Assembly: GCF_037038585.1 (NCBI RefSeq) | Contig: NC_092524.1 | Location: 45,717,001 to 45,781,000 of the forward strand | Reading direction: 5' to 3' | DNA from: Patagioenas fasciata | Lineage: Eukaryota > Chordata > Aves > Columbiformes > Columbidae | Length of the DNA: 64,000 bases | Shown: in pieces, positions 21,501 through 63,075 of the stretch | Layout of the letters: each line of letters opens with the position of its first letter | How positions within the stretch are numbered: the stretch's first letter is position 1 | The notes under the pieces: generated by a model | The model's input: only the letters and a program-made list of their open reading frames with translations | What the model was told of the DNA's origin: nothing | Database searches by the model: none | Made by a program: the position numbers and the translations under genes

Positions 21501-21714
21501 TATGCTTTCTCTTAGTTGCATGTCTTCGGTTGGCACAGAGCTGGCAGGGATAATGTGTATGGTATCTTGCCCATGGGAGGTGAAAGGCTCTCTCTGTTTC
21601 TGAAGAACCATGTGGCTCAGAAACTGTGCTGATGGGCAGGAGCGTCTAGAGAGTCTGAGCAACTTTAACCACCTCTGATGACGTGAAGCCATATGTTTTT
21701 TCCAAAATACAATG

Positions 21715-21866
21715 CTTCCAGCTCTACACTTTCAAGGCACACTGCTTGGATTTTGTCCTTAGGCTTCCTCCGTGCACCCGTATTTCCCTGCTTCCAGCTC
21801 TACACTTTCAAGGCACACTGCTTGGATTTTGTCCTTAGGCTTCCTCCGTGCACCCGTATTTCCCTG
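21715..21866 (+). repeat. Exact 76-bp tandem duplication
   Basis: Positions 21715-21790 are repeated directly at 21791-21866. I see no difference between the two copies, so the duplication is recent, or an assembly artefact. It lies about 0.5 kb before the VSX2 promoter. Confidence 0.9.
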
Positions 21867-22115
21867 CTGACCTGTATTTATCCCAGAATATGGGTTGAGC
21901 AAGAAAGCCGGGGAGGCCCGCCGTTTACCTATGTGGCTGTTTCGCTCATCTCTCCTCCGGGATCAGTGCCCCGTGCTGTGAACGGCCAGGTTGGAGCCGG
22001 GAAGTACGGATGCTTCCATCCCTCCCTACCCTCATGTCTCCCAGCACGGCTGGAGGCGAAGCGGTGCCCGGGCCTGCCCCGCCGGGGCGGCCCCTCTCGG
22101 TGCGGGGGCGGGCGC

Positions 22116-22177
22116 CGGCCCCAGCCCGCTGGTGGGCACCGGCCCCAGCCCGCTGGTGGGCACCGGCCCCAGCCCAC
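22116..22177 (+). repeat. 24-bp tandem repeat in the VSX2 promoter region
   Basis: The unit starting CGGCCCCAGCCCGCTGGTGG occurs twice in full (22116-22139, 22140-22163) and once in part (22164-22177). It ends about 65 bp before the CCAAT box, so copy-number variation would alter promoter spacing. Confidence 0.9.
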
Positions 22178-22241
22178 CGAGCAGCGGGCCCGCCACCGCC
22201 GGTGCCGGCTTTTTGGCATCCCTAATCGCGGCTGGCCCCTG

Positions 22242-22297
22242 TGATTGGCTGCGCGGCTCTGACCCCGCTCGGGCTCCCGGCTGGGCGGATAAAAGGG
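22242..22297 (+). promoter_or_regulatory. VSX2: VSX2 core promoter
   Basis: An inverted CCAAT box (GATTGG, about 22243-22248) is followed 40 bp later by a TATA-like box, GGATAAAAGG (22288-22297). A start about 25-30 bp downstream of the TATA element would lie near 22,320, giving a 5' leader of only about 40 nt before the ATG at 22358. A TAATCG core near 22223 is a possible OTX-like site. The spacing fits a focused TATA promoter inside a CpG island. The start site itself is inferred. Confidence 0.6.
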
Positions 22298-22357
22298 GCC
22301 TGAGCCGGGGGCTCCCAGGCATTCCCGGAGCGGGCACCAGGGACCGCCGGCCGCAGC

Positions 22358-45442
<23,085 letters not shown>

Positions 45443-46800
45443 GGGAGGGAGAGGCAGCAGAAGCCAGCCTCGACAGACATTGTGTCCTCTGGGGGCTGCA
45501 TTTCCCCTTGGACTGCCAGGCCCCTCAGCTCCCCCTGCCCAGGGAGCGGGGCACCAGTCTCTGCATTTGGGGCTGCCTGGCAGGGGCAACCCCCACACAT
45601 GCCCCTGCCCCTCACTCCTCCACCCTGTGGGGCTTTCCTCACCCCCCCACCCCTTCTTTTTGGGGGACTGGGAAGTGACCTATCATAGTTGCCACCTGAG
45701 AGGACACTGAGGCTCTGGGTCCCTCCAGCCTCACAACCAGCTCTGGGGCTCTCTCCTCCTGCTCCCACCCAGGATCCCATCTACCATCTTGGAGCGAGCC
45801 TGTCCCCTGCCGCCATGCCCCTCCTCGGTGCACGTCTCTCCCCAGTGCTGCCTGGGTGTCCCGTCCCACCATCCCCCAGGCAGACCTGACACCTTCTCCC
45901 AGCCATCACCTCTGCCTCTGGCCCAGGCCACAGCAGGACAAGCCCATGGCAGTGTTTGCATGAAATGGTGACTCTCCATCCAGGGTGGTTTGCACCTTCC
46001 ACCTGTCTCTCCCCACCCAGTTCTGGTGTCTGCTGGGAAGGGGCTGTAGCTTTAGAGTGGTTGAGTTTTGCCTACATTTGGCAGGAAAGCAGCTTCAACC
46101 TGTGCGTGCGACAGCCTGGTCCCACTTGGCACCTCGAGGTGACCCTAGCCCATGCACCTGGCCACCGTTGCTGGGTCTGACTCTGCCCCAAACACCAAAG
46201 CCCTGCACCCTGTGGAGTGACCGAATGGGGAATTTGTTTACTGAATACATTAGTCCAGGTGAGACAACATCTGCCCAGTGTATTTATTGAATTAAATTTG
46301 TCCAGCTCGCTCTCTGAGTGTTAAAGGGAATGACAGCCATGTACATCCACCCTGATACACCCCATGATCTGTACATATGTCTCCCAGCCAGCCCCACATA
46401 AGCACACGTAGACCCATGAAGCCAAATCCACTCTGTGGTACCATCACCTTCCCATCCCGGTAAGGCACTCTTTTCCCCTGAAAGCCATAGGACAGTGACT
46501 TCCAGGTGACCCTTTCTGTCCTGCTTTCAGTTGTGAGCACCCTTTCCCCAGAGCTACTGTTTTTCTTCCATCAAAGGTTAAGCCCCTTCATTCAGCCCTT
46601 GTTTGTCTTTGTCCCCCAGTCGTTTGACGTGTTAGATGATAGCCCATGGTGTGTAAATAATGTATATACAGTGAGAAAAGAATTCAGTATTGAGGTGTTT
46701 GAGATATGGAGCTGTAACAACTTCTAGTCATCCAGCATCTGTGATTTATGTGCCATTTTCTGTAAAGATATGAACAAGAATAAAACTAAATGGGAATACT
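45443..46800 (+). other. VSX2: VSX2 3' UTR and poly(A) signal
   Basis: After the TAG at 45440-45442 there is no further coding sequence. An AATAAA signal occurs at 46779-46784, with a preceding AT-rich stretch (tgtaaataatgtatatac). This gives an inferred 3' UTR of about 1.35 kb. An ATTAAA near 46293 is a possible alternative proximal signal. Confidence 0.6.
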
Positions 46801-48862
46801 GTGTAAGAGTCTGGTCAATGATGTTCAAGGAGGGTGAATTCAGCCATAGCTGGGAGGGGGTTGGACAGGCTGTCGCTAGAGAGAGATGGGAGCTCCAAAG
46901 GGGCACAGAGGGGTCTGCACCTTCCTCCCCACCCAGGCAAGGAGAAGACAAGGCTTGGGTGCCACCCTCCCTTTGAGGTGAAAGACAAAGCTGAAAGGAG
47001 TATGCTTGTACCTGGAGCAGATGTTAGGCATCATGGCATACAACTGGTCATGGAACAAGTCACTTCAGCATCCATAACAGCCCCAGTCACCTGGTATCAC
47101 ATGTTCCCTGGCATCAGAGAGAAAGTCGGACCTTCAGGCAGGCTCAGCCTCTGCCAGGAGCAGGTAGTGGGGCCCAGCCAGCCCTGGAAGCAGAGTTGGC
47201 AGCCAGATGCCGCAAGCACAGGGGAGCTTGTTGCGTGGGAGTGGCACAAATGGGTTTCCAACAAGGCCAGCTTCAGTTTGAGAGTAGCAGGAGCCCATAC
47301 TGAGGTATCAGAGAAGAAACCAAGATTCGCCCATCCCGCTAAGGACGGGTGGGTATGGTCTGATGGAAACACCTGATGTCTTACAGGGGGAAAAGGCTGA
47401 GGCAGGGCAGACATGCAAAGGAAATGAGAGACTTTGCTTGTGGAATGATGAGACTGCTTGGGTTTGTCTTTGTGGAACAGCAGTAAGCCCACAGGACTGT
47501 GTTTTCCCGGGGTGACAGAGCCCTCCTAAGTCCTCACGTAGCTCTAGAAGCAACTCTGATACCAACCAGGTGTGTGGTCTAGGATGAGTGTACCTGCTGT
47601 CAAATAGCACCTGTCTCCCATACTGGTGTCCAGCCTGTTCACCCAAGATATCAGCCCTGCAGACCACCAGAGGTGTCGTACTATGAAGAACACAGAAGAG
47701 ATCTACTAACCTCTCGTTACTGCTGTGGATCCCATTGGTGTGTCTGGTTGAGAACAGCCCTGCCTGTAGGGAGAGCTTTCTTCTGCTCTTCTCTTGTGCC
47801 CTCTAGGAAGGGAAGGGAACCTAGTCAATGAAATTAAGGAAACCTCCAAGCTCTGCCTTAAAAAACCACTACTTATATAGGGCCTGAAGGAGAGGAAGGC
47901 AGACAGACATTTGGAGGCATGGGGGCAGCTTAGCCTGGCTACAGCAGGTGGTGGGAGATCTTGGTGTGAGATGTGCTGCAGTGTTTCATGCCAAACCAGC
48001 ACCTCAATCTACCATGGCCTCATTGAGTGCTTCCAGTCCACCCTGTGGTTCAGGCCTGTCTGAAGTGTTTGGGAGGAGGCAGAGAGCCCAGCCCAGCATG
48101 CCAGGGGAGACAGCTCTGATAGCCACCCAGCAGTGAGGTGGGATGGGATACAATATCCCCCTCCTGCAACAGACAGCCGCAGGAGAAAAACATTCCCTGG
48201 CCCACCAGAGACACCACAGCCCAGTGCTCTGCAGGGAATGGGCTTTAATTCTGGGAAGGAGATGGTCCTGTCACCCACAGCTAGCATGGAGGGGACCCTA
48301 ACATTTACAGGTGGGCTGCCCTGGGCTGCCCTCATGGCTGGCAGAGGACCAGGGGGCTGCAGCCAGGGGCCTGTGAGGAGTAAGGGGATGAGGATGAATA
48401 GAGAGAGGTGGAAGACAGGCAAGTGGGGGCAAAGCAGAGGGGTCCAGGGATGCAGCTCAGCCCCAAGAGAGTGGGAGCAGGCTGGTAGAGCCTGGTCCAG
48501 GCACTTCAGTCCCCATGGGGAGCCCAGGCACCCGCTCGACCTGGCTCCCATTCAAGAGCAGCCGTCAGGACTCAAATTAGCATGAAGGTTATTTTCAGTT
48601 AAATATTTCTACAGTCCACCCTTTTGCCCTCCCTTAAAGGGATTGAATTTCATTTTTCCCATAGTGCTCTGGGAGAGACGAGGGGAGGAATGAGTCAGAG
48701 GAGAAGGGGTTCCCTGCACAGGAACTGTTTTGTGTCCAGTCAGCCCAGGGCAAAGTAGCCCCAGATCTCACAGGGGCCTGTCTTGGCCAGGTCAGGTATC
48801 CCAAGTGGCTGTGAGGGCTCCAGGCACCCATCTGCTTGATAAGAGGCAGGTGCCCTGGTATG
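46801..48862. other. Spacer between VSX2 and the ACSS1-type gene
   Basis: About 2 kb between the VSX2 poly(A) signal and the next start codon, both on the + strand. No exon was recognised. The promoter of the downstream gene should be here, but no clear TATA or CpG island is visible. Confidence 0.5.
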
Positions 48863-51800
48863 ATGGCTAGGCTGCTGGCCAGGGCTCTCTGCTCTAAAGC
48901 TCTTCCTTGGGGTCCCAGATGCTCCCCTGGGTCAGTGACTGCCCAAGCCTGGAGCCATGGGCCCCTCACTGCCTACATGCCCGAAGCCGTCGCCTTTCCC
49001 AGACTCAAGGACCACCAAGGCTTGTACAAGATGTCGGTGGAGCAGGGGGACGACTTCTGGGGAGCGCTAGGGAGAAGCCGGCTCACCTGGATCACTCCCT
49101 TCCGCTCTGTCCAGGACTGCGACCTGCGCCAGGGCAGGGTCTCCTGGTTCCTTGGTGGGCAGCTCAACGTGGCAGGTAAGGAGGGAGACGGACGTGGGAG
49201 CCCTCTAAGTGCCTGTGAGTGCCTCTCTGCAAAGAACTTTGGCCCTGGGAGCAGACTGGAGGAGCACAGAGTTAAAGGGTTGGAGTGAGGAGGACGCTCC
49301 AAAGGTCCAGTTGGTCCTGCAATGGCTGTAGTGTAGTGATGCAGCTGGTCCTAAGGGAGCAACTGGGTCTCGCTGGCGGGGCTGCAGCTGGGTGAGGGTG
49401 TTCTGGGAGCCGCGTTGCTCTCCCTCAGCTCCCATGGCTCACACAGCAGCTCAGCAGTTCCATTTTGCAGGACCACAGGCAACAGCGCTGAACTCTGTGC
49501 ATTCAGCAGGCAGTGCTGCACTAGGCTGTCCCTGTGCAGCGAAGGCAGTCTGTATCTGCAGAAAGCAAAATGCAGGAGCAATGGGTGGTATTGGAAGTCC
49601 TCACAGCCATGTGAGGCTCCTTCTGTGGGCTGGGGCTACCAGGGGAAGACATAGGGGCTGGTGACACTGTGTCCTGCTTACAGTACTCTTGGTCCCAGTG
49701 TCCAAAATACAAGACAAGACCTCAGAAATCATGTCCTAAACAGTCTATTTGGGTAGGAGAGCAGTGGTTATTTGCCTTTGGGATTTGAGGTCTTACTGTT
49801 CCCCCTTCCGTGTGTGTTTCTTTCTCTCCTGTACGACTACAAACGGTGAGGAGAAAAAGGCATTTTGGTATGCAAACTGGGGCTGCTACACCATCCCATG
49901 ACCTCGCTAGTGGGTTTGAGGAAAACAAAGAGGGGAACAAAGCTTCTGAGGAAACTGCAGCTGCCAGCAATGTAGGAAACTTTTCGCAGAATTACAGCCC
50001 AAGCCTCACCCTACCATGTCTCTGGAAAGCCAGGGGCTGTGCACACCTGGCCTTTGGTCTCCTCCATCTTGGACAAATGCACCCTCCAGCCTTCCTGTGA
50101 AGAGCTTTGCCTCATCCTACTTTTGTTATTTAGCCACTGAAAATCTGCCCTAGTCCACTCCAGAGGCAGTTGCAAGGCAGTGCTGGGTGGAGTCATGGCT
50201 GAGTTAATGTTTGCCAGGCCCTCTGAGGGCACTGGGGATGTGACCTCCAAAGCAACTTCAAGCACTTTTTGTTCTGGACTGCATTAGGTTTCAATTAAGG
50301 GGGAAGCTGATAGTGGGGATTGGTAGGCATTGGAGTGCTGAGGAGTGTAACGAGCTTGGGATGGTGCTTGTGGTCTGCTGGCTGGTATCCACAAAAGTTA
50401 TTCCAGTGGATGCACAAGGCTGGTACTGAAGAGACTCACGCACAGCCCTGACTCTGATCTGAAAATGGGGCTGCCAGTGCTGGCTTTACGGGAGGTAAGA
50501 GGTACTGAGGGTTGCTCTGGCAATGAGGCTGGTTCATCTTTTCCAGTGAATTGTCTGGATCGACATGTCCATGTAGCCCCAGACAAAGTGGCCTTAATCT
50601 GGGAGAAGGATGAACCAGGAGAGGAGGTGCGGGTCACGTACAGGTCAGTACTTACCTCTGAGCATATGAGACATGTCACAGCGTGCATGAGCACTGCACA
50701 GGGCTGATCTGCTGATGTGCTTCACGTGAGGGGATGCAGCATTTTTTTGTACAGATAGATCAACAATATGGTGGCTGTTGGCTTGCCTGTGCTGATCTGA
50801 GACTTCAGCCTACACTCTGATTAACCCTTTGGTTCCGAGGGGTCCCTACCCAGGTGGGGAGGCAGATGTAAGCCCCTTGTGGCAGCACCGCAATGCTTGT
50901 AGGTAAGATCACATGGGAAAGTCACATGTGTGCCTTTCTAGAAAGGCTCCTGGTGTCTAAACTTGGAAGTGAATGGTCTGCAAGAGAGGCCAGATTCACA
51001 GCCACATGGGTGCTGGGAGGTCCTGTGCGCATCCACACATCAGCAACACTGCTGGGTTTGGTTCTTTGTGGGGGCTGCCTGTCCAGCCTTGCTAGGTTGG
51101 TCTGGGCCCCCCCCACCTTCCAGCTCAGTTTGCCTGCTCTCTCAGTCTCCACTGCAAAATCCATGTACATCCCTCTGCACACAGAATAAGTCTCTCTGTC
51201 CTCTCTGGCTCCAGACCTCATACGATAAACGTGACCATCCACCCCTGCCAATCTCCCTGCATGGAGAGCCCTTCCATTAAATGAGTCACTGACAGCCAAG
51301 CCATGGTTTCTGGGAGGGATGCTTTTCAGGAGAGGCATCGTTTTGCTCACTGCTTTCCTACAACTGCTGTTCTCACTGGTGGGCACAAGCTCTGGAGAAC
51401 TTGACCTTGTCAGCTTTAGCAAAGCACAGGGCCCTGTTTTCATGGGGAAAGTTATCAGACTCCCCTTGTGTAGCCTCTAGCCTTGCAGGGCACTGTGTTT
51501 CTTCAGTTGTATGGGCTGATAAGAATTGTCATTGGGAAAGTCAGCTGAGGTGGTGTGGGCTTGCTGTGCCAGATAAATTGCCAGTGGCCATTGCTGGCCC
51601 TATGGCTTGCTCCTCATGCTGGCCAGAGAGAGTGTCAGGCTCTGTACAGAGGCCATTCTGATTTATTTATTTTCCATAAATAATTGCCCATGTTAGTGAC
51701 TGTCTTCTCCTTCCCACTGATATTTTATAGTTCTCCCATGGACTCCCAGTGTGGGAGGTTAGGGTACACAGGGATGTAAGCTGCACAGCTGAGGCCCCCC

Positions 51801-54800
51801 ATCTTTATGCACGCTGGTGAGATCTGCGAGGAAGTCTCTAACTGTGCCATTGGTTCTTTGGGCAGGGAACTGCTGGAGCTGACGTGCCGCCTGGGGAACA
51901 CCTTAAAACGTCAAGGGGTGAAACGTGGTGACAGGGTGACAATCTACATGCCCCCATGCCCACTGGCAGTGGCTAGCATGCTAGCCTGTGCCCGCATTGG
52001 GGCTGTGCACGCAGTGGTGTTTGCTGGGTTCAGCGCAGAGTCCCTTGCAGACAGGATCCGGGATGGTAAGAGCCAGTGGGTAACAGGAATGTGTGTTTCC
52101 CTTGGGGGACAGTGCTGAGCTTGTTGATTTGGCAGCTGGGGAGGCTCAGGGTTGCGCTGATAGCAAAACTTTCTGGAGTAAGACTCCCTGGGCTCAGTGA
52201 GGGTGGCCGGCCATGATGTGTGGCCATAGAGCAGGGATTAGCACCCCAGGAAACCACACAGGCTCACTAAATATCTTCCAGCCCATAGGGTGGACTGGTT
52301 CTCTCCTTCATCCAAGGGACTGAAGTGGCCTAGGATACAGTGTCTCCTCTGAGAGGATGCAACACAGGCAGGAATGAATAGCAAACAAAGATGCAAAGCT
52401 GCTGTTTCTGCTAAACTGAGGGCATGAGTAACAGGGGCTGGGAGACAGTGGGAGAGGTGCAGGGTCATGGCAGAGCCAAACTGCTGTGTGGTGGATGAAG
52501 AGGGGCAGAGCTACTTATGTGGTTCTTCTGCCTTTGCAGCCCAGTCGGAGACAGTGATCACAGTGAACCAGGGCCTGAGAGGTGGCAAGGTTATTCAGCT
52601 AAAGAAGACAGTGGACCAGGCTGTGAAGCAGTGCCCAGGAGTGAAACGGGTTCTGGTTTCCATGAGGACTGATAGCAAAGTTCCCATGACAGCCATGGAT
52701 GTGCCGCTGGAGGAGGTGAGAGGCTGCCCAGCACTACTGCTGCTTCCCATGGGCAATGTGCCTGGTCTGGGAGCAGGGACAGAGCGTGGAGATAAGGTCC
52801 TGGCTAGCCATGACAGTTTTTCTGGTGTTGACATGATGTAGGGACATTGTCCTGCAGCAGCAGCAGCTGGAGCTGTACACAAGTTCAGGAGAGTCTTGGG
52901 AGCCATCAGGAGAGGTAACTGGTAGCTCTTCCTGCACACCAGCCCTATACTGTCACAGGCAGGCAGTGCAAACCAGGGCTAGTAGCAGGGTGGACGAGGG
53001 GCTAGAAACACCCCAGGCATGGGCTGACATGTGAGTTCAGCCTTGTACAGCCACTGCACTGTCACACACAGCTCTGCTGGCAGACCTGGCACCCCCTGTG
53101 AGCACCGCTGGCAGCTGGTGTCCAATTAAGCAGGCAGAGAAGCTGCTCATGTGCTCTTTATCCGTGGCACACAGGATGGCCAGGCTGCCAGCATGGAGCA
53201 CTGCTGCTGAAGAGGTGAGCCCCTGCTGTGTGTTTCTGTTAGCTCCCTGGGGCTACAAAGAGGTTTCTCTGCCTCTGCTCATCCCATCCGCAAGCAATCA
53301 GTGCTAGAAAGCCTTCCTGGCAGAGTTCTGTGCTGGTCAAAGCAGCAGCAGAGTAAAAATAGCTGCCTCTTACTCAGCAGGTCTGCTCTGGCTGATGACA
53401 GCATTTACCAGCTCAGCACAGTGAAAGAGAAGTCAGGATGGAAAGCAAGGGGGTGCAGGTGGGGAGGTGGGGGGGACAGTATGTGGGGAGCCGGGTGGTG
53501 CAGGTGCTTGGAAGATGCTCAAGGGAGAAGTGCACATGTGGATGTACGGACAACACAGGGAAGCCTGTGAGAGCCTGTGAGACAATGGCTGTGCTCTCTC
53601 CTGCAGGAGATGATGAAGGAGGATGCACACTGTGAACCCGCTGTCATGGACAGTGAAGACATGTTGTTCCTTCTCTACACATCAGGTAGCACTGGCAAAC
53701 CCAAGGGCCTAGTTCACTCCCAAGCTGGTTATTTGCTGTTTGCTGCTCTCACGCACAAGGTAATGGGACCCAGCCACAGAGTGCTTGTGAGCTGGCAGTT
53801 CATAGACGGTGCAGGGAATAGATATGGTGTCTTGTTGCACCATGAGATCATCTTTATCCAGAACACAGTCTCTGGGAAGCCCTCCTAGAGCATCAGCCCA
53901 GTAGAGCACATCTGCCTACAGGTAGTGGGGAAGAGCAACACATGCTCAGAAGCAGGGCCTCCCAAAAACTTACTCCTTTGAGCATCTCTGCTGGGATCCT
54001 TGCTGAGCTCAGGGTTTTCCTGAGGGTTTATGGTGCATTTGGAGCCTAGTAGTGCCTGTGGGTGGCTCATGGAGGCCTCTACCTCACTGCCTTTGCCTAC
54101 AACTCCTTGCCTTCAATGTGGGCCTGTGGGTGTGGAGGGTCCATCCTCACCCTGAAATTTCTCCTACTTTGATGCTAGAGGATACTTGGATCAGCCTTGT
54201 CTAGACACCAGTAGAAGAAAGGGGCTGTAGCTTTCTCCTTTGGAAAAGAGAAAATTTGGCTGTGTTAGTTTTGTTTGTTTGGTTTTTTTTTGGTCTCTCT
54301 TCCTTCCTCCTGCACCTTCATAAAGCACTCGATCACTCGATTTTTTTTTTTTTTCTGATAATATAATAATACTCTGATAATATAATAAAACTCTGCAGGA
54401 AGAGGGTGTCCCTGCAGGGGTGGTGTAATGATGGAAGAATGTAATAACATTATGGCTAAGTGAGGGTACACTGCTCCTGGTTGTCCTCCTTGCCGGGAGG
54501 GCAGGCCCAGGTTGTCCTTATCCCCCTCACTGCCTCTCCTCTCTTGAGCAGTATGTGTTCGACTACCAGGACAGAGACATCTTTGGCTGTGTGGCAGACA
54601 TCGGCTGGATCACGGGGCACACCTATGTGGTCTATGGCCCCCTCTGCAATGGCGGCACTACAGTCCTTTATGAGAGCACTCCCATCCATCCTAACCCTGG
54701 TGAGTAAGAAGGCGGCTAGAGCGAGCTGGGATACGCCACAGCCACCCTGCGTGGGGTGGGCAGCTGGCGGCTTGATGCCAGGACACAGACAGCAATGCTT

Positions 54801-57800
54801 CTGCCTCGGCAGGAACAGACTGTGGGCTGTGCCTAGCTGAGAGCTGCAAGGGAAAGGGACTTTTCCTCTGGTTAGGAAGCCACTGCTGCTTCTCTAGGAG
54901 TGAAGTTGTTTCTCCCTGTCCCTCCCTGCAGCAGGGAGAGTAGCAGAGCTAGGTGATGTCAAAGAAAAAGGGTTGCAGCTGCTCCTGGGCTGCTTTAGTC
55001 ATTCCCAGAGTGGGGTTAACTTAGCTGAGGGTCCAGGCGCTGCTGGAGAGCCCTTCCTCTCACCTCCTCTCTCTTGGTCTTGGGGATCCTGTGCAGATGT
55101 TTACTGGCCCTGTTTCCATTCCAGGCCGCTACTGGGAAACAGTGGAGAGGTTAAAAATTAACCATTTCTATGGGGCACCCACTGCCATCCGCCTGCTCCT
55201 GAGATACGGTGATGAATGGGTGAAGAAGTATGACCGCTCTTCTCTCAAAGTGCTTGGCTCAGGTAACTGCTGGTGGCATGGGCTAGAGCAGCACATTCTT
55301 GAACAACAGGTTTTGCCTCTTCCCACAAATGCCAAGAGTAACAGCATATGAGAGTAGAAAGTCGTCAGACTCTCCTATTTGGGGGGTGACTCCATGAGCA
55401 GGCCTTTGGAAGCTGTGTCTTTGACCTGATCTTTCAGCTCTGTTCCCTTGTCCTTCCCTTTGCAGTGGGGGAGCCCATCAACAAGGAGGCGTGGGAGTGG
55501 TACTTTCGTGTGGTCGGCGAGACACGGTGCCCAGTAGTGGACACGTGGTGGCAAACTGGTGAGATGTGTATGACCCCTCGTTCCAGCTTCTGCTCTCCCA
55601 GGCTGTAGGAGTGACTTGCTGCTTTGTTGGCCAAACGGAAGTGGTTGTTACCGGAACTCTTGTATGAGCAATGCCATAAGCGGCCATAGGCACCAAAACA
55701 CTAAAGAGATAAATGGCCTTTAAAACTATCCCAGAGAAACACAGGGCAGGTGGTGGTAGGGAGCTGATCTCTGCTGAACTAAATGAGCAGGATCATCCTT
55801 CTGCAAAGAGCCTTTCCCTGCTCTCCGGCAAACCCAGCCTCAACCTGTGGTCCAGCAGCATGCAGCAAGGGCCAGGGCAAAAGCTGTTGGCCAAGCAGTG
55901 CTACCTGGCTTTCCTCTTGCCCCTGACTTTGATGAGCATTACAGCTTCTTTTTCTTCAGAAACAGGAGGCATCTGTATCTCACCTCGTCCTTCTAATCCT
56001 GGAGCTGAAATCCTTCCAGGCATGGCTATGAGACCTTTTTTTGGGATCAGCCCCTCCCTCCTGGATGACAAGGTACATTTTTAACCTGCAGCCCCAGCAC
56101 CAGCTCAGCTCACTTTCCCCCAGATGCTTGCAGACAGGTGTGGAAATTTGCAAACCCCTTTCCTGCTCACCTCTGCTAGATGGCCACCCTCTTTACCAGA
56201 AAAGGACTACCAGTAAAGCTGTTCTTGCACCTAGTGCAGAAGTCGAGTTGTTTTCTACCTTGCTCTGTCCTGACAAGACAGGCTGTGCTTGGGTTCTCTA
56301 CTGGCCTTTCCAGGGTGAGGTAGCTGGGCAGGCACAGCCAGCCTCCCTGGATGAGCCCTGTGTCCCAGCACGGCAAGCAGCTGGTGGCAGACCTCCTCTG
56401 GGAGAGACTGGGCCTGTCCCCTTGGAGCCAGGGGCATAGGACACCCCTCACTACCTTCCCTGGCGCTGCCATCACAGGGTTGTTACTGGACATAGTGGTA
56501 AAAATAGACAATGACTAAACAACCCAAGTACCCTCAGCCATGGTTACTAAACGTAACTATTTTGCAGGGAAATGTCCTTCTGGAAAACAACATCTCTGGA
56601 GCCCTGTGCATCTCACGAGCCTGGCCAGGCATGGCACGAACCATTTACAAAGACCACAAGAGATTTCTGGAAACCTACCTGACTCCTTATCCAGGTAAGG
56701 AAACATTGTGGCAGGTCACGGCAGAGGTGTTTGGTTTGGTACACCTGGGTCTGCCTGCTGGCTTTCTGCACAGGGCAGGACTTGGGAGAGCTGGCACTGT
56801 TGCTTCATTCTTCTACACTCCCTACGGTGTTGAGGGCCTTCATCTGCCCCTGCCTGAGACCTCATCACTGCCATGAGAATAGGCTTCTGTCACTCACTTT
56901 CCCCATTGGATCACATGTGGTTTTATGGCAGTGGATTTTTCCTTCTGCCTCCAATGCCCTCAAGCACAGAGAGGCCTCTTGCTGCATCTCTTGCAAACCC
57001 TGTTGGCTCCTGTCGCTCATACAGAGACACTGAGCAAGCCCAAGTGTGTGTCTCCATGTGAAGCAAAGGGGTCAAGCAGCAAGACCACAGGTACCTGCAC
57101 TGGGGCAAATTTGCTGATGACACCAAGTTGGGGGGCAGTGTTGACCTGCTGGAAGGCAGGAGGGCTCTGCAAAGAGATCTGGATAGACTGGAAAAATGGG
57201 CTGATTCCAATGGGATGAAGTTCAACAAGGCCAAGTGCCGGGTCCTGCACTTTGGCCACAACAACCCCCTTCAGCGCTACAGGCTGGGCACAGAGTGGCT
57301 GGAGAGCAGCCAGACAGAAAGGGACCTGGGGGTACTGATTGACAGCAAGCTCAACATGAGCCAACAGTGTGCCCAGGTGGCCAAGAAGGCCAATGGTATC
57401 CTGGCCTGTATCAAAAATAGTGTGGTCAGCAGGACAAGGGAAGTGATCCTTCCCCTGTACTCTGCATTGGTGAGGCCACACCTGGAGTATTGTGTTCAGT
57501 TCTGGGCCCCTCAGTTCAGGAGGGATATTGAGGTGCTGGAGCGGGTCCAGAGAAGAGCAACAAGACTGGTGAAGGGACTTGAGCACATGACCTATGGTGA
57601 GAGGCTGAGGGAGCTGGGGTTGTTCAGCCTGGAGAGGAGGAGGCTTAGAGGTGACCTCATTGCTCTCTATAACTACCTGAAGGGAAGTTATAGTCAGGTG
57701 GGAACTGGTCTCTTCTCCCAGGCAGTTAGCAATAGGACAAGGGGACATGGGCTTAAACTCTGCCAGGGGAAGTTTAGGCTGGATATTAGGAAGAAGTTCT

Positions 57801-59638
57801 TTACGGAAAGAGTGATCAGGCATTGGAATGGCCTGCCTAGGGAGGTGGTGGACTCACCGTCCCTGGAGGTTTTTAAACTGAGATTGGACATGGCTCTTAG
57901 TGCCATGATCTAGTAAATGGGCTGAAGTTGGACCAAGGGTTGGACTTGATGATCTCTGAGGTCTTTTCCAACCTAGCCAATTCTGTGATTCTGTGATTCT
58001 GTGATTAGCACACTGCAGAATGAGGAAAGGAGCCCAGTGACGGAGCAGGTAGCAACAGAGGCAGACAACTAGTAAGGAAGGTAGGCACATGACCCCTGGT
58101 GTCAACAGAGAGGAGAAGGGTCAAGGTGAGAATGTGTCTGGTGAGCAGTTCACAAGCTCACTGTAACAACTGACAATGGCATGGTTCTGGCCCCTGCAGG
58201 GTTTTTCTTCACTGGGGATGGCGCGTATCGTACCAGTGAGGGCTACTACCAGCTGACAGGACGGCTGGATGACATCATTAACATCAGCGGGCACCGGCTG
58301 GGCACTGCAGAGGTGGAAGATGTTGTGGTAAGAGAAGTGGGTGGGAGGTAAAGCCATTTGAGGGGGCAGCGAAGGTGCACTGGTGGTGCCCAGGGAAGCC
58401 TCTTGGAAATACCCAGAGAGAAACACACTGCTGCTGTAGCTTCAGGGAGCACTGCTGGACACATGGCCTGCCTGCAGGAACAGCTTCCCACCCTCTCCCC
58501 TCCCTTTTCACTCTGCAGCAAGAGAGGTACAAAGCCTGATACGCTTGATGCTGTAAGCAGGCAAATCCGAAAGCATCCATGGGCCAGTAAAGGTTGTGGG
58601 ACCTAGTGGAGCAATCTGGAGGTGCACAACAGTGTCTAGAAGGTGCAAGACTAAATCAGCCAGAGACAGGGGGAAAGACTTGTGTTTGCAGACCAACCTG
58701 CTAAGGGAAGAAGGAAAAAGGGCAGAGGCCACCTGAGGCCCTTTCCTATTGTTCCACATTACTGTGGGTTGCAGCAGCCAAGCCAGGGCAGGGTGGGTCC
58801 CAGGTGGCAGACAGACTGCTGAAAAGTGCTGAGACAAACCCTAGCCCTGTTTTCTTCCAGAATCACCATGTGGCAGTGGCGGAATCTGCTGTCATCGGCT
58901 ACCCACATGAGATCAAGGGAGAAGGTGAGACACTTGCTTTCCTGCACCCAAAATGCCTGTCTTGGGCTGTTGCAATGCAGTGGGAAATAGCACTGTCACA
59001 CCAACCACTGGTAACAATGCTGTGCCAACGCCCCCGAGTGGGGATCTTGACACAGCCATCACAAGCTATACTGCAACCAGTTGGGCTCTGCACGAGGTGC
59101 AAGTGCTGTGGTCAAAAGCACTTACAGCTCAGGGTACTGAGTATCCCCCAAGGCCACCAGCAGAGAGGCAACTCTCCTGGCACGAGGTCCAGGCAGCCTC
59201 TCAGGAAGACACTGCACACACTGTCCAGTAACCCCACGGTCCTTCTGCCAGGAGCCTACGTGTTTGCTGTGCTGAAAAAGGGCAGCAGCTACACGCAGGA
59301 GACTCTTGCTGCTGAGCTACGGGAGCTGATCTCCAAGAAGATTGCAAAGTATGCAGCTCCAGAGTACGTTCAGGTAATGCCTGTAGGCTGACCCAGCACT
59401 CACTCTGGCAGCCTGGTGAAGCCCCTTCCCTCAGCCTTAGCTCTGCTCCTCCCTGTTACAGGTCACGCACCGGCTGCCAAAGACACGCTCAGGGAAGATT
59501 ATGCGTCGGGTGCTAAGGAAAATTGTGGAGGGCAAGGCCAGTGAGCTTGGGGACATAACCACCCTGGATGATCATGAAGCTGTGCAGCAGATCATAGAGG
59601 GACACAAGCATCTGGTGGAAAGGCAGAAGAGCTGCTAG
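48863..59638 (+). CDS. ACSS1-type mitochondrial acetyl-CoA synthetase, 14 exons
   Basis: Makes acetyl-CoA from acetate, ATP and CoA, probably in the mitochondrial matrix. Exons: 48863-49175, 50547-50643, 51866-52065, 52540-52715, 53607-53759, 54552-54699, 55125-55262, 55466-55558, 55960-56072, 56568-56694, 58200-58327, 58861-58924, 59252-59373, 59462-59638. All junctions are GT-AG and in phase: 682 codons, close to human ACSS1 (689). Motifs: [11 protein letters not shown] 286-296 (ATP loop), WWQTETGG 436-443, TGDGAYR 524-530, [13 protein letters not shown] 540-552, and PKTRSGK 630-636 with the conserved catalytic lysine K636. The start at 48863 has a good Kozak context and gives a basic leader ([12 protein letters not shown]) like a transit peptide. 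An upstream ATG at 48860 is also possible. Resembles ACSS1 rather than cytosolic ACSS2 ([19 protein letters not shown]). Its place beside VSX2 suggests an ACSS1 ohnologue, not ACSS1 itself. Confidence 0.93.
53607..53759 (+). CDS. ACSS1-type gene exon 5 (P-loop of adenylate-forming domain)
   Basis: In-frame 51-codon exon, phase 0 at both ends, encoding [11 protein letters not shown] and [20 protein letters not shown]. This is the phosphate-binding signature (core motif A3) of the AMP-binding superfamily and is fully conserved. Confidence 0.95.
54355..54392 (+). repeat. 19-bp tandem pair after a poly(T) run
   Basis: Two adjacent copies of CTGATAATATAATAATACT (second slightly changed) follow a run of about 15 T in intron 5 of the ACSS1-type gene. 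Simple low-complexity repeat. Confidence 0.7.
57105..58006 (+). mobile_element. Second young CR1 copy in ACSS1-type intron 10
   Basis: A 5'-truncated CR1 in the sense orientation, filling about 900 of the 1505 nt of intron 10. Its 897 nt (57105-58001) correspond to 33176-34072 of the VSX2-intron copy with constant offset and, by eye, no difference. It keeps the 3' part of the RT frame (FADDTKLGG to [10 protein letters not shown]) and the ATTCTGTG tail, which here has one more partial repeat. Splice sites of the host intron are untouched. Confidence 0.95.
59462..59638 (+). CDS. ACSS1-type gene terminal coding exon (catalytic lysine)
   Basis: 58 codons plus TAG, acceptor GTTACAG. Encodes [20 protein letters not shown], the C-terminal swinging domain with the lysine that acts in adenylation, then a helical tail to QKSC. 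No AATAAA was found in the 0.5 kb after the stop, so the 3' end of the mRNA is unplaced. Confidence 0.93.
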
Positions 59639-60156
59639 CTTGGCTCTGTCAGCAGCCACCTCCTGGTCCTTCACTGCAGAACTGGGGCCATATCCAGAAA
59701 TATCAGTAAGCAACTGGTGCTCAGTAAGTTCTCAGAGGCTGTTACCTCCACTGCAGTCTCAGAGTGACCTCTGCACAACAGAGACCCTCAAAACCTCTGT
59801 CTTCACACCCCTGTGGGACGCAGGGAAGAAAACACGATACATCATAGGCAGAATGGTAAGGGGAGACCAGCTCTGTTTCCTCCCTAGAGGAAAGACCCAC
59901 AGAAAGCCAAAAGCCCTCAGTGGGTTCCTTGTGCCTTGCAGTAGCTGTGGTAATAGCAACAGGGTAGGATACTACAGCCAGCCCTGGACAGGTATATCAC
60001 TTCTACCCTGCTCTGCTCTTCAGTAGACTAGTCCAAGAGCACCGCCAATATTCAAGCATCTCCTCCAAAGCAAACCCCAGGAGGAAAAGATGCAGCAGCC
60101 AGGTTAACAACTACTGACTCTTCTCCATAAACATTATTGGAAAACAGGCCCCAGAT

Positions 60157-60162
60157 TTTAAT
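60157..60162 (-). terminator. ABCD4: Possible ABCD4 poly(A) signal
   Basis: ATTAAA on the minus strand (TTTAAT on plus), about 550 nt after the ABCD4 stop codon. The position fits a 3' UTR end, which would leave under 0.6 kb to the end of the convergent ACSS1-type coding sequence. A single hexamer is weak evidence. Confidence 0.35.
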
Positions 60163-60715
60163 ACAAAGATGTTCCTTAGACCTGTAACCCTGTGTCATAA
60201 GGAGAGCAGAGACATGTCCTTCTTTGCGCCAGCCATCTCTTTCCCTTGGCTCCTGCTGGGGAGCACAACCTTCGACACAGCCACTAGTACAGAAGCCTGT
60301 TCTGCAGAACTGTGTATCAAAGAGACGGAGGTCCCAGCGAGGCACAGAGGGCAGAACAGGAGGCTGCATCTCAGCCTTGCACCACTGCACCATGCACAAG
60401 TGGAGGCTCCTCTGGCCATTGCTTCTGCAAGCTCCATGAGGCAGCATCTTCTCTTTGGGCAGCCTAGCAGCTCAGCCCCTTCCCCCATGAAAGGCAGGGA
60501 GGTAGGAGAAGGGTGGCATAGATGTGTGTGCTCCTGGCAGAATCTCACACCACAAGTTCAGACTTGGCTCTGCATCCACCAGCAAATTGCAGAACTGGTC
60601 TTGCACTGGATGAATCCTTTGTTGACAGCTGTTGGCTCAGCAGCCCTATGTCTGCTAGGCAGAGCTCTCCCATGCATGTGCAGGATCTGCGGCTGGCCAG
60701 ACAAGAGCATGTTTT

Positions 60716-63075
<2,360 letters not shown>

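Follow-up and report, generated by a model that had tools for sequence, protein, structure and literature searches.

The 64,000-nucleotide stretch of Patagioenas fasciata DNA analysed here (the window; C5:45717001-45781000 in a 1.45-Gb genome of 359 contigs) contains an intact acetyl-CoA synthetase gene at positions 48863-59638 on the forward strand, between the homeobox gene VSX2 and ABCD4. This gene very probably represents ACSS1B, an ohnologue of the mitochondrial ACSS1 dating from the whole-genome duplications of early vertebrates. In these events, VSX, ACSS1 and ENTPD would have been duplicated as one block, with the VSX1-side copy giving rise to ACSS1 (ACSS1A) and the VSX2-side copy to the gene in the window. 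ACSS1B would then have been kept in the bird lineage and is presumably absent from the human locus, no ACSS gene being known between VSX2 and ABCD4 on human 14q24. An ohnologue had already been proposed in a sequence-only reading of the window, and this proposal is now supported by a second copy in the same genome, by the exon plan, by a tree including a provisional human sequence and by gene pairs on contigs C5 and C3.

The gene comprises 14 exons with 682 codons and a stop codon. All 13 introns are bounded by GT-AG, the phases are kept and no in-frame stop occurs, which bears out the 14 in-phase exons and the codon count given earlier. Exon 1 (48863..49175) contains the start codon and encodes a basic, acid-free N-terminus (four K/R and no D/E among the first 40 residues), likely a mitochondrial targeting peptide, and the protein is predicted to be imported into mitochondria. 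An additional in-frame ATG at 48860, one codon 5' of the assumed start, could be the true start codon, the nearest upstream in-frame stop being located at 48812. Exon 2 (50547..50643) has the same length as exon 2 of a homologous gene on contig C3, which is described below, and exon 13 (59252..59373) is 3 nt longer than its C3 counterpart. Exons 3 (51866..52065), 4 (52540..52715), 6 (54552..54699), 7 (55125..55262), 9 (55960..56072), 10 (56568..56694) and 12 (58861..58924) were placed by the gene model and by comparison with the C3 gene, as was exon 5 (53607..53759), which carries one of the sequence motifs of the enzyme. TWWQT lies within exon 8 (55466..55558), GDGAYR and SGHRLGTAE lie within exon 11 (58200..58327), and RSGKIMRR together with the stop codon is found in exon 14 (59462..59638). 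In the translated protein, motifs are located at residues 285, 435 (TWWQTE), 525 (GDGAYR), 549 (SGHRLGTAE) and 633 (RSGKIMRR). The core motifs and the lysine motif named in the sequence-only reading are thus present in the translated gene; such motifs serve in adenylation, with an acetate-pocket tryptophan in TWWQT and a C-terminal catalytic lysine in RSGKIMRR.

A search of the genome with the window protein yielded at least 35 exon matches at four loci, which are the C5 window, C3, C20 and C1. A full second ACSS1 gene was directly observed on the reverse strand of C3, with 14 exons and 665 codons, a start codon at C3:11407370 and a stop codon ending at about C3:11377286, as calculated from the exon lengths. 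Eleven of the 12 internal exons are equal in length to those of the window gene, exon 13 being the one that differs (by 3 nt), and all phases are equal. The two proteins are identical at 418 of 659 aligned residues (63%; 62.6% of 663 in a six-way alignment), and the C3 protein likewise has the core motifs and a basic, acid-free N-terminus. In contrast, the two genes reside on different chromosomes and differ in intron lengths and in both length and sequence of exon 1. The gene on C20 belongs to the same enzyme family but has its exon borders elsewhere, e.g., a cut within the stretch that corresponds to exon 3 of the window gene, and it is 54.2% identical to the window protein over 461 columns. 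Because of its different exon borders, it was taken as ACSS2. The C1 locus represents a weaker relative, a putative ACSS3. The window gene groups with the C3 ACSS1 and not with ACSS2, and the intron positions are common to both ACSS1 genes.

With regard to function, the top NCBIfam family for the window protein was acetate--CoA ligase TIGR02188 (908 bits against a cut-off of 725, residues 49-670), and both NCBIfam propionate ligase models scored it below their own cut-offs. The Pfam domains ACAS_N, AMP-binding and AMP-binding_C were identified. The protein would most likely use ATP and CoA to convert acetate into acetyl-CoA, with acetyl-AMP as the usual intermediate. An intact ohnologue with a changed function, e.g., acting on another short-chain acid or in another compartment, would be in line with the 37% divergence from ACSS1A, the different exon 1 and a start that lacks a CpG-rich stretch. 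We consider this unlikely, since the motif stretch and RSGKIMRR are identical in the two proteins, the family scores favor acetate over propionate, and both N-termini are of the same basic, acid-free type.

The age of the split between the two ACSS1 genes was approached by a tree of six sequences, consisting of the window gene, the C3 gene, the ACSS2-like gene on C20, fungal enzymes and human ACSS1, the last of which was a provisional sequence not taken from a database record and is the sole other vertebrate in the tree. The C3 ACSS1 paired with this human sequence and the window gene was placed outside of the pair with a bootstrap value of 100; the two alternative topologies were rejected in the approximately unbiased (AU) test (p-AU 0.0045 and 0.0007). 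The earlier expectation that the gene would not be nested within ACSS1 as a recent copy is upheld by this position, with the reservation that the human sequence is provisional. Over 569 columns, identity to this human ACSS1 was 79.3% for the C3 protein and 70.7% for the window protein. At sites where exactly two of the three proteins agreed, C3 and human were the matching pair at 92, window and human at 43, and window and C3 at 27 sites; in the same order, the counts were 32, 23 and 12 in the first half of the alignment, where the signal was less clear, and 60, 20 and 15 in the second. With fungal outgroups, quartet counts were clear (22 : 5 : 3 and 19 : 2 : 4), and a tree calculated without the human sequence showed no more than a grouping of the two ACSS1 genes to the exclusion of ACSS2 and the fungal enzymes. 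The window and C3 genes differed by 0.27, 0.20 and 0.55 at the three codon positions, and a simple Nei-Gojobori calculation resulted in a proportion of synonymous differences (pS) of 0.70, a synonymous distance (dS) of about 2.1, which is saturated, and a ratio of nonsynonymous to synonymous distance (dN/dS) of about 0.14. The saturated dS and the low dN/dS therefore indicate that the split is old and that the proteins have been under purifying selection over most of the time. With the provisional human sequence as its single mammal, the tree lends strong support, short of a rigorous test, to a split that would predate the separation of birds and mammals.

Pairs of related genes were directly observed on C5 and C3 by exon matches for VSX, gene models for ACSS1 and family searches for the remaining genes. 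On C5, a PAX gene (44.45 Mb), an ENTPD gene (45.61 Mb), VSX2 (45.76 Mb, forward strand), the window gene (45.77 Mb, forward strand), a CD225-family gene (45.82 Mb, SYNDIG1L by place) and a glycogen phosphorylase gene (68.87 Mb) were located. C3 carries a PAX gene (0.79 Mb), a Str_synth gene (11.36 Mb, APMAP by place), ACSS1A (11.38-11.41 Mb, reverse strand), VSX1 (14.04 Mb), an ENTPD gene (14.09 Mb), a phosphorylase gene (14.11-14.12 Mb) and a CD225 gene (15.18 Mb), with VSX1, ENTPD and phosphorylase lying within 80 kb. Of the three matches in the VSX search, C5 carried two and C3 the third, with none listed elsewhere; phosphorylases were found at three loci (C5, C3 and C46), and the C5/C3 PAX pair represented the two best of 14 matches. 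The APMAP-like gene is situated 21 kb from ACSS1A on the same strand, and human ACSS1 is also close to APMAP. Such gene pairs are also a feature of human 14q and 20p.

Several observations weigh against an origin of ACSS1B by whole-genome duplication or limit the evidence for it. ACSS1A is not adjacent to VSX1 on C3 but lies 2.64 Mb away (11.41 versus 14.04 Mb); of the predicted second ACSS1 beside VSX1, the full copy and its location on the VSX1 chromosome were thus confirmed, and the close vicinity was not. A rearrangement within C3 has presumably separated the two genes. ENTPD matches also occurred on C11, C33, C27 and C2, CD225 gave 15 matches over six contigs, PAX was also found on C30, C12, C11, C48, C1 and at a second place on C5, and the best Str_synth match was on C1. 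As several families have members on other contigs, single family matches prove little, and members of the C5/C3 pairs were assigned by place and not by trees. The weight of the synteny is carried by the VSX pair and by the adjacency of the window gene to VSX2. The tree relies on a provisional human sequence and on no further vertebrate, so that the dating to the early duplications (2R) rests on synteny. Moreover, the quartet counts became nearly even (9 : 8 : 4) with the ACSS2-like gene as the sole outgroup. Finally, no AATAAA or ATTAAA was present on the forward strand downstream of the stop codon, from 59638 to 63000; a search for ten variant hexamers as far as 61200 found three (AAGAAA at 59826, CATAAA at 60126 and AATACA at 60160).

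The distance between ACSS1A and VSX1, which leaves the block broken in this genome, would also be compatible with a single-gene duplicate of ACSS1 that arose in an early tetrapod or sauropsid and landed beside VSX2 by chance. We regard this as very unlikely: the chance of landing at most 20 kb to either side of the VSX1 partner in a genome of 1.45 Gb is about 3 in 100,000, strand and order of VSX2 and the window gene are those of human VSX1 and ACSS1, and the tree, given its provisional human sequence, dates the split before that of birds and mammals. An origin of the window gene by recent duplication of ACSS1 in birds, or as an assembly artefact, has no observation in its favor and can practically be dismissed in view of the 63% protein identity, the saturated synonymous sites and the differing intron lengths, and among the matches listed none outside the window locus exceeded 77% per exon. 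A pseudogene was set aside given the intact, in-phase 14-exon model and the purifying selection.

The proposed ohnologues ACSS1A and ACSS1B differ in their putative promoter regions. Over exon 1 of ACSS1A, which lies in the stretch C3:11404700-11412700, the observed-to-expected CpG ratio was 0.76 and 0.86 in two 400-base windows, whereas it ranged from 0.03 to 0.37 around the start of the window gene (ten windows over 47900-50099). The lack of a CpG-rich start may therefore point to a narrower expression, and ACSS1B may be expressed in fewer tissues than ACSS1A. Tentatively, birds might possess two mitochondrial acetate enzymes with divided duties, ACSS1A acting broadly and ACSS1B being switched on in a narrower set of tissues or states; the human line would have lost this division. 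Conclusions on ACSS1 transferred from mammals to birds, e.g., on acetate use, heat stress or egg laying, should consider two genes. With no ACSS gene known at the human VSX2 locus, the ACSS1 pair also presents a clear example of an ohnologue of metabolism that one amniote lineage retained and the other presumably lost.

A second ACSS1 gene in vertebrates is already known in kind. Passages in chicken studies name two genes, ACSS1A and ACSS1B, so that the chicken is likewise a bird with two ACSS1 genes; there, UniProt E1BZT9 is labelled ACSS1B, and ACSS1B appears in liver protein data, as transcripts in liver and ovary, and together with ACSS1A in heat-stressed breast muscle (PMC10531955, PMC11426133, PMC9484139); no other paper was returned for ACSS1B. 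These passages give no locus, and we infer that chicken ACSS1B is the VSX2-linked copy. The reports on liver, ovary and heat-stressed muscle neither show nor exclude divided duties. The idea is also in print in outline in a study whose title announces a further, novel vertebrate Acss1 and the fate of its paralogues, some retained and some lost (Castro et al., 2012, Gene, PubMed 22313524; reference list of PMC3890633). Our literature search returned no paper joining ACSS1 with VSX2, none on ABCD4-VSX2 synteny and none on vertebrate ACSS1 duplication together with ACSS3 phylogeny. Among the titles listed for VSX1, VSX2 and their chromosomes, none dealt with ACSS genes, and passages of one paper on zebrafish acss2l give no locus. 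The detail added here is the VSX2-side locus, the separation of ACSS1A from VSX1 and the promoter contrast.

The upstream homeobox gene, which we take to be VSX2, was followed on the forward strand from the homeodomain end (V) through one intron to the stop codon (43897..45442) by exon matches (window positions 43897 to 45358) and the OAR motif. A PDB search with this piece yielded nothing beyond general homeobox matches, located where the homeodomain ends. The previously noted spacing of 2 kb between VSX2 and the ACSS1-type gene holds when counted from the poly(A) signal at 46779 (2.1 kb to the start codon), but the distance from the VSX2 stop codon, which ends at 45442, is 3.4 kb. Downstream, a piece of ABCD4 (the VLDEATSAL... 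region) is encoded on the reverse strand at 60974..61096, where 41 residues match PDB ABCD4 (E 2.3e-13), corroborating the tail-to-tail arrangement that had been described; a Pfam scan of this short piece gave no match.

Intron 10 of the ACSS1-type gene harbors a reverse-transcriptase fragment of a CR1-like long interspersed nuclear element (LINE) at 57062-58006, which is open for 283 codons from stop to stop and is followed by a ATTCTGTG array at 57980-58006. Together with the genes present, this element is in keeping with a bird genome. An Rfam scan of the window at gathering thresholds yielded no match. Further upstream, at 21713-21868, a 76-base unit is repeated 2.1 times with 100% matches, shortly followed by a GC-rich stretch (0.73) at 22001-24000.

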